A stretch of 64,000 nucleotides of DNA, taken from NCBI GenBank assembly GCA_030035585.1, contig CM057475.1, positions 82,725,334 to 82,789,333 on the forward strand, in the 5' to 3' direction. Shown piece by piece: positions 32,401 through 38,400 of this stretch. The first letter of the stretch is position 1. Each line of letters starts with the position of its first letter. The position numbers and the translations under genes were made by a program. The notes below the pieces were generated by a model. The model searched no databases, had not been told where the DNA came from, and saw only the letters and a list, made by a program, of their open reading frames with translations. The stretch comes from Dugong dugon. Its lineage: Eukaryota > Chordata > Mammalia > Sirenia > Dugongidae.

Positions 32401-35400
32401 GACCAGGCTCCCCGCGGGGGCAGCTGCGTCTGGAGGGGCTTCTTGCAGCTGGTAGTAAGTGGAAGGGGAAGAGCTTTAGGCAGCGTGGGGAGGGCTGCGG
32501 ACCTGAGGGGGTCACACTCCTGCCCTCCCGCCTAAAGCCTACTTGTCAGTGGTACTCCCCACCCCAAAACCTCAGCTCAAAGCAAGACTTCCTCCAAGAT
32601 GCGGCTCAGCAGCCCAGCAGCTCCATCCGCACCTGGCGCAGGGGGAGGGGGGTTGGTGAGGTGAGAGGCGTGGAGGCAGGAGGTCGCCTTAGGATGAGGG
32701 GCTCCGTAGGATGAGGGGCGAGGAGGAAGGAGGTGCAGGAAGGAGGGGCGCCTTAGGACGAGGGGCGCCTTAGGACTAGGGGAGCCTTAGGACGAGGGGC
32801 ACGGAGGAAGGCGGGGCACAGTAGGATGAGAGTCGCGGAGGATGAGTGCTGTCACTCAACCCTCTTGGGCCCACCCCAGTCCAGCTGTCCCTGGGGTGTC
32901 GGCGTAGGCCGGGCCTGGAGAAAGGAAGGGGCTCTCACGCCCAGGTTCTGCTTTCCCACGCCCACCCGGCCTGTTTCCAGCAGACTCTCCGCCCATGGTT
33001 CCAGCTGACCGGTGCGGCACCTCGGTGAATCTGACAAGGCCGCCCCGAGGCCAACTAGAAGCCCGCCCGCAGGACCACACAGGAGAGATGGTCTTGCCGG
33101 GCAGCCCGGGAGGACTCGCGGGGATGCAGGGCCTGGCAGGAAGATGGCTTCAGCTGGCACCCCGCGGGTCTGAGCAGGCTCCGCCGAGGCGGGCGGGGTT
33201 CCTCCTGTCACCCCTGCAGCTCCCGCCCTCTGCCAGCGCCCCGCGGATTCGCCGGTCCATCTGGGTTCAGGGCCGGCAAGCGGCAGGGCCGTCCTGGGGC
33301 CCCTCCCACGTTTGCGCCTGTTTCCATGGTAACTCCTCTGTACCCTGCCTGCCGTGATTGTGCTCTGTTCTCCTTGTAGATGGAGGAGATAAAATTTAAA
33401 GACAGAGCAGTCTTCGTGCTGGAGAGAGAGTTAGGGGTGCAAGCCGGGCACGCTCAGAGACTGCAGCTGCAGAAAGAGGCTCTAGATGAGCAGCTGTCCC
33501 AGGCCAGAGAGGCCGACCGGCACCTGGGCAGCCCCAGACGGGAACTTCCTTATGCAAGCGGTGCAGGAGACGCCTCAGACCACTCGGGAAGCCCTGTAAG
33601 CACCGCCCGCGCTTCTCCCCGCGCCCCAGTGCACGGGGCGGCTGCGGGAGCCCCGGCCCAGGTTGAGCCAGACCCTCCTGCCTGTCTGCAGCCAGCCGGC
33701 TGGACCCTCAGCTCTTCCGCTAAAAGGGCTGATAGATGCTGGTTTCCTCCCTTACTCCTTAACAAAACGCAAGCACGGGCCTCCATTTGATCCCTGGCCA
33801 GTGGCCCCTGAAACTCCAGGTTTCCCGCTGGGCTCTGTGTGTCTGCTGCCAGGTCTGGCTGCCAGCAGCCCTTGGGACTTGCTGGTGCCGGCAGGAGAGG
33901 AGGCGGTTCTGAGCACCTGCTGCTTCCATCCCGTGTGCCCAGGCTTCTGCCTTCCTGCCCAGGAGGGGCTTGGCTGGCCATGGCCTGCCTGCGTTTCTGG
34001 CTTCGATCATGCACAGTGGCTTCTGGCATGCATGTCCCCAGTCACCCTTCCACCAGCTTCCTGTGTGACCATGCCACTCTTCCCTCCTCCCTGGGCTGGG
34101 AACGACAGCGGGGGTCCGCCATCCCCCCAGCGCATGCTCTGTGGCATCAACCATCTTCCCATTGCGGGTCCTCATTCAGGGTCCTTCTGCAGTGGTTCTG
34201 GAATATTCTGGGAGAAAGTCTAAATTCCATGGGCCCTCGGTGCTGGTCCCTTGGTTCTTTGATTCCGTGCCTCTCCTGCACCTGTTGAATGAGGAGCTAG
34301 AGCCGCGTCCCTCCTGGACGTTTTAGGAGTAGAGCATGGCATTTTGTAATCTCTCTAAGCTTCTGCTGGTCTCAGTGCCTTAAACCCAGCGTCTCCTGCT
34401 CTGGTACTTGGTAGACCATTGCGGTAGCTCCAGAGAGATTCTAAAATTAGATCAACGTGTTTTCACTGGTTTTTGAACAAAGTTCCAGTGGTCCCCAAAG
34501 TGACCTTTTAGAAGCTCCATTTGGGGAGCACACTTTTCAGGGAAACAGCTGCTGAGAGTCTTGCATGGGTGTCTTTTCCCGGGCTCACATTAACACCAGG
34601 AGAGCAGGCCCGCCGGCAGTGCAGGGCAAGCCCCCCCGAACCTTGGCGCGGGGCGCCAGGACGCCATGGAGTTGGTTTTCAGAGTTCCCGCAGCGCCAGC
34701 AGCACCGTGGCGCCCACATCGCACACGCCCGCCCTCCACATCCGCATCCTTCTGGACATTTCTGCTCCTCTCGGCTTCTGTCCCATCCTGCAGTCTGCGT
34801 GACCATTGTGCTGGGCTGTGGCCCACCCCGGGCCGTGCTGCCCGCCTGCCAGGGGCCAGAGGGGAGTGTTAGGCAGGGGTTCTGTGTCCGCAGGTGCTGG
34901 CGCGTCTGTTTCTGTGCTCGGGTATTTGCAGTTGATTGTTGTTTCAGGAACAGCAGTTGGACGAAAAAGACGCCCGGCGCTTCCAGCTGAAAATCGCCGA
35001 GCTGAGCGCCATCATCCGGAAGCTGGAGGACCGCAATGCCCTCCTGTCAGAGGAGAGGAACGAGCTGGTGAGGGACGGGGTGGAGGCTTCTATGGAGGGG
35101 TGGCCTCAGAGGGGGCTGGGGGTCCCCGTGGAGGAGGGGAATGAGCTAGTGGGGGCCCCTATGGAGGGTGTGGCCACAGAGGGGCCTGGGGGTCCCCGTG
35201 GAGGAGAGGAATGAGTTAGTGGGGGCCCCTATGGAGGGTGTGGCCACAGGGGGATCTGGGGGTCCCCGTGGAAGAGAGGAATGAGCTAGTGGGTGCCCCT
35301 ATGGAGGGTGTGGCCTCAGAGGGGCCTGGGGGTCCCCGTGGAGGAGAGGAATGAGCTAGTGGGGGCCCCTATGGAGGGTGTGGCCACAGGGGGATCTGGG

Positions 35401-38400
35401 GGTCCCCGTGGAAGAGAGGAATGAGCTAGTGGGGGCCCCTATGGACGATGCAGCCACAGAGGGGCCTGGGGGGGTCTCAGTGGAAGAATGAGCTGGTGAA
35501 TGGGGGCCTCCTGTGGAGGGTACAGCTACAGATAGGGCTGGGGGTCCCCATGGAGGAACAAGCTGGTGGGTAGGGGGGCTCCTATGGAGGGTACAGCTGC
35601 AGAGGGGGCTGAAGGTCCCCATGGAGGAACGAGCTGGTGGGTAGGGGGGCACCTATGGAGGGTACAGCTGCAGAGGATGCTGGGGGTCCCTATAGAGAAG
35701 AAGGACGAGCTGGTGAGTGGGGGTGGGGTTCTATGGAGGTGCGGCCACAGAGGGAGCTGGGGGTCCCTGTGAAGGAACAAGCTTATCGGTAGGGGGGCTC
35801 CTACGGAGGGTGCAGCTGCAGAGGGGGCTGGGGGTCCCCATGGAGGAGAGAAACAAGCTGGTGAGTGGGGGCATTTCTGTGGAAGGTATAGCTGCAGAGG
35901 GGGCTGGGGGTCCCCATGGAGGAACGAGCTGGGGGATGGGGGCTCCTATGGAGGGTGTGGCTGCAGAGGCGGACCAGGGCATCCCTGTGGAAGGAGGAGT
36001 CCAGTCCCCTTCACTCCTACAGAGCATTGGGGTCAGAGAACCCCTGTGTGGTCGGTCACCCCACAGCAGGAGGAGGGCTGATGAGGAGGTCCCTGAGCTT
36101 GGCTGGGGAGGGGTGGGGTGTCCCTGCTGCCAGCTGAGCCCCACCCCACACCCTGGAGACCATTGTGGGAAGACAGCTGGTGCCAGGGTCTAGGGACAGG
36201 CTTGGGGAATGACTCATTGTGCAGGAGGGCTGCAGTGGCCATGGGCTGTGGGGTATTGGGGTGAGGGTCATCTGGGGACTGGGAAGGGGCTTCCCTATGG
36301 GACAGGAACCCCATCACTTTGTCCAGACAACTCAGGCAAAAGTATCTAAAAGGCAAAACTACAGAGAAAGTGAAAAGTGGGTACCAGGGGTTCGGTGGGG
36401 GGGATAAGTAGGTGGCGCACAGGGCATTTTTAGCACAAACTATTCCATGTGACACATAGTGGACACGTGACATTATGCATTTGTCAAAGCCAGTAGGACC
36501 ATAACACAGAGTGAGCCCCCATGGGAACAAGGAAGTGGAGTTAATAACAATGTATCAATGTGGCTTCATCCACTGTAACAAAGGCACCACAGGTGGAGTT
36601 AATAACAATGTATCAATGTGGCTTCATCCAGTGTAACAAAGGCACCGCAGGAAGCGCCATGTTAATAACAGAAGAAAGAGTGAGCAGAAGGGGCAGGTAT
36701 CTGGGAACTCTGGACCGTCTGATCTAGAAAATAAAGTCTGTCAAAAAAGAAAGAGCTGAGGCCCCTAACTGGCTTAGAGTGGCTCAGCCTTGGAAACAGC
36801 GCCCAGCTCATCGAGCCCTTTTTATCATCAAACTACACCCTTAAAATGGATGCGTTTTATGATATGTAAATTATACCTCAATAAAGCAGTTTTAAAAAGT
36901 GCTTGGTTCAAAGTTTAGTAAGAACTGATGGGCATAATCTGGATACATTAGGGCAAAAAACACCATTGTGTGAACTCTACAGAGAAGGGGTCAGCAAACT
37001 CTTCTGTAAAGGGACAAACGGTAAATATTGGCAGGACACGGTCTCTGCAGTGACTACCCAGCTCTTCGGAGTAGTGAAAAATCGGCCATAGACAATATAA
37101 ATGAGTGAACGTGTCTGTGTCCAATAAAACTTTATTCACAACAACAAGCAGAGGGCCAGATTTGACCCTCAGGCTCTGGTTGGCTGAGCCCTGCTCTGCA
37201 TTGTTGGTACAGAAGTATCCTCAATTCTGCAAGTTACCTGGGATGTGTGTTCGTGGGTGGGTGGGCTACTCAGAGCATCCTGGGTAGTCGAGTGGGCAGG
37301 GCTTGGCAGTGATTTTCCTGCAGCTCTTATTCCAAAATAGAGTGTTGACCTCAGCATGTGGCCCTGACTTGGTCCTCATTCATGCTGTAATGTGGGGCTC
37401 GCCCATCCACCTCCAGTTCGCCCAGGTGTTGGGTGGGCGGAAGAGCAGCAGCTGGCCTGGCACCACACAGTGACGTGAACTGAACTCTGCTATCTGTAGA
37501 GAGCTAGTGGATAGCCACGTCGCTATGGCCGGAGGTTGTGCTGGTCAGGGTGTGGACTTGGCATGGATGAGCGTGTTCTATAATTGATCCTGTCTTTCAG
37601 TTAAAGCGTCTGAGAGAGGCTGAGAGCCAATACAAGCCACTGCTGGACAGAAACAAACGCCTTACCCGGAAAAACGAAGACCTGTCACACACTTTACGTC
37701 GGATGGAGAACAAGTTAAAATTCATCACCCAGGAGAATATAGAAATGGTAAGGGGCCCTGGCACTCACACTCTCCCCTTCTTACAGTCAAGGTGGGAGAA
37801 CAAGATGCAGTCCCTGGGCCTTGTGCAGTCAGCTCGGCCTCTGGGGCGGAGCTGGTCTGGCCTGCTGGTCAGGGGAGGACGCCTTAGATACGGCGCCTGG
37901 CCAGGTGAGGAGGGGCACAGGAGGCACTGCGTTGGGGTGGCAGCACAGAAGCAGAGACGAGCTAGGAGGTGGCCAACCAGCCGGGCCTCCCTCCTTCCAG
38001 TCCTGTCCCAGGAGGCCTGAACAGTGATGGCTCAACTCTGAAGATCTCGGCCAGCAGCCATTCACGGCTACCCTGAGTGCCGGCCGTGGGAGGGAGAGGA
38101 GTGGGCAGCCTGGGCTCGGGCACAGGACGGGGGCAGCCGCTGCTCTCTCTGGTGGCTCCGCTGTCATGGCGAGTGTGGTTGAGTAGCTGGTGTCTTGTCT
38201 GTTCCTTCCGGCCCTGAGAGCCCCTGAGGCCACCAAGGGGGAGTTTTGGCAAAGAGTAGTCAGCATGATGCAGGGGCCCTGGAGGAGGGATGCCCTGAAC
38301 ACCCTCCCTGCAGAGGTCCCTTTCTTTTCAAACTCCAGAACAGTCCAGTAGGATGTGACATGGCACAGATAGTGCCTGTGGCCACGTCCTCGGGGCCACA

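Follow-up and report, generated by a model that had tools for sequence, protein, structure and literature searches.

A dugong minisatellite begins at the exon 4/intron 4 boundary of a JAKMIP-family gene and repeats its splice donor

When the last bases of a coding exon, together with the splice donor, are repeated in tandem within the following intron, do the copies disturb use of the real donor? This question is raised by a 64,000-nucleotide stretch of the Dugong dugon genome (assembly GCA_030035585.1, contig CM057475.1, positions 82,725,334 to 82,789,333 of the forward strand; hereafter the window, with positions counted from its first letter), in which intron 4 of a JAKMIP-family gene opens with a minisatellite. 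A first-pass annotation of the window proposed that this minisatellite was made from the exon 4/intron 4 boundary and that two of its donor copies could act as decoys, competing for U1 binding or shifting splicing. Sequence comparison supports derivation of the array from that boundary. The array is probably neutral, its G-rich units giving slight help to the real donor, with any decoy use at trace level and removed by nonsense-mediated mRNA decay (NMD).

The tandem array is formed by units of 67–81 bp, begins inside exon 4 at 35050, and extends to about 35999. The initial annotation had located it correctly but gave its limits as 35051 to 35975. Independently, Tandem Repeats Finder (TRF) places the array at 35090–35969 with a period of 70 and 12.3 copies, in agreement with the unit of roughly 70 bp described earlier. 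Cutting the sequence at the junction motif delimits a founder unit, u0, and twelve derived units of 67–78 bp (u1–u12), so the repetition of the junction stands while the number of near-copies falls from about 13 to 12. The features of the locus are as follows (a slash marks the exon–intron boundary).

34948..35067, + strand: fourth mapped coding exon, 120 nt, 40 codons, phase 0 at both ends, translation ending ...LLSEERNEL
35050..35130, + strand: founder unit u0, 81 bp, the last 18 exonic and 63 intronic bases
35068..35073, + strand: intronic part of the real splice donor CTG/GTGAGG, as predicted from frame and motif
35131..35477, + strand: units u1–u5, four of 70 bp and one of 67 bp, a block of dead CTA/GTGGGG-type donors
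35212..35214, + strand: first in-frame stop after exon 4 for any junction copy beyond 35149 used as donor
35478..35694, + strand: units u6–u8, weaker donors CTG/GTGAAT (35496) and CTG/GTGGGT (35566, 35637)
35695..35769, + strand: unit u9, decoy donor CTG/GTGAGT at 35713
35770..35842, + strand: unit u10, junction motif decayed to CTTATCGGTAGG
35843..35913, + strand: unit u11, decoy donor CTG/GTGAGT at 35861
35914..35999, + strand: unit u12 and tapering tail, dead donor CTG/GGGGAT, tail ending in GGAGGAG

A 27-nt probe spanning the real donor (18 exonic and 9 intronic bases) has 11 further matches downstream within the array, with 16–23 of 27 bases identical; seven of these reach 21–23. Beyond the array, the probe scores no higher than 19 on the + strand (one place) and 18 on the − strand (ten places), and the four array copies that score 16–18 were counted only because they lie in the array register. 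The twelfth derived copy, near 35787, has lost the junction motif. Unit u0, which holds the true exon end, is 84–87% identical to u1–u4 over aligned columns, and therefore the array starts in the exon. Resemblance to the exon stops upstream of 35050, where four copies compared match it at 5–6 of 20 bases, so the exonic breakpoint is sharp. Identity is 90–99% within u1–u4 and 62–92% among the distal units u6–u12. The motif GAGGAG is present both at 35050 and at 35994, the point at which unit homology tapers out, which suggests that slippage duplication between short identical GAGGAG motifs may have seeded the array. We infer this seeding step, since GAGGAG is common (62 occurrences on the + strand of the window) and the alignment of the tail is weak when taken alone (48 of 1000 shuffles reach its score). 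No G-quadruplex motif, defined as (G3+ N1-7)x4, was found in the array; the remainder of intron 4 contains two.

The host gene lies on the + strand of the window, where 18 coding exons were mapped from open frame and splice signals. The gene is putatively JAKMIP3, rather than JAKMIP1 or JAKMIP2, a name assigned from human sequences. Judging from the human protein, presumably at least two further coding exons exist beyond the 18. When the peptides of five exons from 43490 on are joined, they match the Pfam family JAKMIP_CC3 (PF16034) with E 5.1e-54 and 183.4 bits, against a cut-off of 30.2. The joined peptides of exons 3–6, exon 4 included, gave only sub-threshold coiled-coil matches in Pfam, and exon 4 is therefore placed in the gene by its strand, phase, order, and sequence. 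Searched on its own, exon 4 gave weak Pfam matches, all below the cut-off, and two weak PDB matches, at E 0.079 and 0.24. Mapped coding exons start at 17322, 27390, 33380, and 34948, making the exon at 34948 the fourth, as it was originally numbered. Its boundaries are the acceptor TGTTTCAG/GAAC and the donor CTG/GTGAGG. Intron 4 reaches to 37600, with the next exon at 37601.

How good are the donor copies? They were scored in bits with a donor frequency matrix and by pairing with the 5′ end of U1; these are motif scores and not MaxEnt values. Seven of the twelve derived copies lack donor context, three carry a weaker CTG/GT, and two read CTG/GTGAGT. The earlier statement that most copies had lost the GT context is thus right for the context, but five of the seven keep the GT itself. 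These five are the u1–u5 junctions of CTA/GTGGGG type (with TTA at 35219 in u2 and GTGGGT at 35289 in u3), which score 1.6–4.4 bits and are confined to the single block 35131–35477, while the two derived copies without GT lie near 35787 and at 35932. The weaker CTG/GT copies score 6.5 bits (35496) and 7.7 bits (35566 and 35637). The GT positions 35068, 35713, and 35861 had been given exactly, and the two decoys are indeed closer to the consensus than the real donor, although by a small amount: they match at seven of nine positions compared with six, score 10.29 compared with 9.08 bits, and pair with U1 at −8.7 compared with −8.6 kcal/mol. Together, the two strands of the window hold 7050 GTs, of which 19 reach the score of the decoys or better and 58 that of the real donor or better. 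Outside the junction register, AGG/GTGTGG (6.05 bits) occurs at 35168, 35238, 35308, and 35378 in units 1–4 and at 35955.

The sixth intronic base is T in seven of the 11 derived copies listed and in six of the ten that keep GT. Therefore, the ancestral donor may have been GTGAGT, with the T later lost at the real site; alternatively, the T may have arisen in an early copy of the array. Column conservation among u6–u12 gave no sign of selection to keep or erase the decoy motifs (0.77 in junction columns and 0.75 in other columns). Selection was also considered as the cause of the dead proximal block and dropped, as u1–u5 look like one amplified variant and may represent a single event. RNA structure that hides either the real donor or the decoys was likewise rejected: predicted accessibility is low throughout (0.0047 at the real donor, 0.0018 at 35713, 0.0030 at 35861, and at most 0.0180, at 35566), with no clear difference.

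Arrays of this class are already known from the human genes ABCA7 and IFI6, and the dugong array is a further member: its unit contains the 5′ splice site of the host exon, and on motif scores two of the twelve copies exceed the real donor while three more keep CTG/GT. In the variable number tandem repeat (VNTR) of ABCA7 intron 18, the first two bases are the donor GT of exon 18. The donor one unit downstream is used, causing a frameshift and premature stop, and its use is reported to be independent of VNTR length (PMC5954066). In ABCA7 and the dugong gene alike, the repeat starts at the donor of a coding exon and later units repeat that donor. The ABCA7 VNTR has a 25-bp unit, lies in a C-rich region, and is highly polymorphic in humans, ranging from about 12 to about 427 units; in contrast, the dugong unit is 67–81 bp long and includes 18 exonic bases, and its nearest copies are dead. 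The IFI6/G1P3 (6-16) minisatellite similarly gives one exon end several splice donors (Turri, Cuin and Porter 1995, as summarised in PMC4526556). Reportedly, two of its downstream units serve as donors, so that three mRNA species arise; the dugong copies are candidate donors. In MIR137HG a VNTR also lies beside donors, and its length is associated with use of a nearby alternative donor, although those donors lie in the pre-miR-137 sequence and, unlike the dugong copies, are apparently not made by the VNTR (PMC6692358). Among the papers listed for JAKMIP3 with tandem repeats or with splicing and exons, no title or abstract opening describes the array, with supplements and subscription papers outside that search.

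If a decoy were used, what would the transcript contain? The decoys lie 645 nt (35713) and 793 nt (35861) downstream of the real donor. Exon 4 would grow to 765 nt with a frame shift of 0 through 35713 and to 913 nt with a frame shift of 1 through 35861. Use of either takes in the stop at 35212, and the products would therefore be NMD targets. The sole junction copy that gives an open extension is the first, dead one at 35149, which would add 81 nt and 27 residues. All junction copies within 427 nt after the real donor are of the dead type.

The surroundings of the donors differ on one side. Runs of three or more G were counted in the 100 nt on either side of each donor. The real donor has none upstream and seven downstream, compared with four and six at 35713 and five and six at 35861; the five copies that keep CTG/GT have 4–5 upstream and 5–7 downstream. 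The mean is 1.8 per 100-nt tile over 639 tiles. None of the other 17 mapped donors exceeds seven downstream, a count that two of them reach, and with overlapping GGG counted the real donor ranks first of all 18, with 16 in the 100 nt downstream. On the intron side of a donor, G-runs are reported to enhance its use, and on the exon side to silence it; in TP53 intron 6, deletion of at least four G-runs shut off a weak native donor and brought a stronger cryptic one further downstream into use (PMC12062376). By analogy, the upstream G-run context would favor the real donor over the decoys. Of the cryptic donors that variants had activated in a human survey, 87% were found within 250 nt of their normal counterpart (PMC8964760).

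Together, these observations can be read as the history of a passenger sequence. A tandem duplication of ~80 bp straddling the exon 4/intron 4 junction would have seeded the array, perhaps between a GAGGAG in the exon at 35050 and another in the intron, the relic of which is now at 35994. Later growth would have proceeded by slippage or unequal exchange, which makes the copies of the exon end and donor passengers. The real donor would keep its advantage by closing a 120-nt exon free of G-runs upstream and followed by seven, and G-runs on the exon side of the decoys would silence them. Should 35713 or 35861 be used now and then, the transcript would contain the stop at 35212 and be sent to NMD; overall, the array is predicted to leave splicing unchanged or to enhance it mildly. 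With the nearest copies dead, the good decoys 645 and 793 nt away, and G-runs upstream of them, trace decoy use at most is expected, and we infer near-constant use of the real donor. The locus offers a natural test of donor strength against exon context, with higher-scoring decoys 0.6–0.8 kb downstream in a predicted silencing context.

Several points weigh against this reading. The downstream G-run counts of the decoys nearly equal those of the real donor, so the asymmetry between them lies on the upstream side alone. Replacement of TP53 intron 3 with an intron free of G-runs caused just 1.3% exon skipping (PMC12062376), and the donor at 35068 is not weak and therefore may not need help from G-runs. 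Intronic decoys are reported to show negligible depletion and a modest effect of distance on their use (PMC8964760). Predicted accessibility shows no clear preference for the real donor. The off-register AGG/GTGTGG is not dead, and its first occurrence lies 100 nt from the real donor, although the sites near the real donor score 3 bits below it. Another off-register motif, TGG/GTAGGG at 35570 and 35641, pairs with U1 at −9.4 kcal/mol, more strongly than the real donor, but has a matrix score of just 5.1 bits; neither off-register motif had been noted in the first-pass annotation. Finally, the donor-embedding VNTR of ABCA7 both supplies a cryptic donor that is used and alters exon skipping through its length (PMC5954066).

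ABCA7, where a cryptic donor one VNTR unit downstream is used, makes the competition or shifted splicing proposed in the first-pass annotation possible in principle. In its full form, U1 bound at 35713 and 35861 would divert transcripts, and an NMD-targeted mRNA fraction that depends on array length would tune gene dose; repeat length would then be a dial on gene output, and work on ABCA7 ties VNTR length to splicing and Alzheimer's disease (PMC5954066). Both decoys outscore the real donor and fall among the 19 highest-scoring GTs, and ABCA7 and IFI6 provide precedents for repeat-unit donors that are used. However, the long distances, the exons of 765 and 913 nt that would result, and the G-runs upstream of each decoy all count against it, and the ABCA7 cryptic donor is just 25 nt away, with use reported as unchanged by VNTR length. 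Competition is thus weakly supported, and we consider it unlikely. Array length could instead modulate skipping of a neighboring exon through repeated binding sites for splicing factors, as in ABCA7, where longer VNTRs bring more skipping of exon 19 (PMC5954066). Exon 4 is symmetric, so its loss would remove 40 coiled-coil residues in frame, and its donor has the top downstream GGG count noted above. The divergence of u6–u12 suggests an old, slowly changing array, although u1–u4 could be younger than the distal units; such modulation seems improbable here. An assembly artefact, in which a repeat was collapsed or mis-joined, is a far slimmer prospect: G-rich tandem arrays are often mis-assembled, but these units are diverged and distinguishable, and only the u1–u4 block could easily be mis-counted.

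Does the array reflect a wider tendency in the gene? Four of the 20 merged tandem arrays in the gene body have TRF starts 23–37 nt after a mapped donor (35090, 43653, 52008, and 53239). The expected number is 0.35, giving p values of 0.0006 for random placement, 0.0013 for circular shift, and 0.0009 for GC-matched placement, and of 0.001–0.007 with limits of 60–150 nt instead. No array among the 20 stops in the last 150 nt ahead of a mapped acceptor, but for two of them the distance is 165 and 171 nt, and the contrast between donors and acceptors therefore depends on the limit. As the adjacency limit was set post hoc, merging of the arrays was manual, the exon map is incomplete, and the 35090 array is the finding itself, we treat donor adjacency as a lead. 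It is doubtful that splice donors in this gene seed minisatellites, a view in which exon 4 would be the extreme case, its seed duplication extending into the exon, and the G-run arrays would be tolerated for strengthening the donor from which they arose. The arrays at 43653, 52008, 53239, and 60451 were tried as junction-derived and rejected, as none beats shuffles at 0.05 (best 0.082, for 53239). The exon that ends at 60363 is followed, 88 nt on, by the 16-bp array at 60451–60677. The donor after the exon ending at 51971 is weak (GAG/GTGCAC, 3.0 bits), with a 40-bp array starting 37 nt further on.

Elsewhere in the window, an Rfam scan at gathering thresholds returned no structured RNA. Open-frame fragments at 2866–3417 (+ strand) and 57215–57388 (− strand) resemble an RTE/BovB-type retrotransposon. 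The frame-derived exon end at 46146 reads AAG/GTCTAA and scores near 0 bits, so this boundary may differ or the donor may be unusually poor. The intron preceding coding exon 3 contains a large 43-bp minisatellite of 31.8 copies at 28952–30326.

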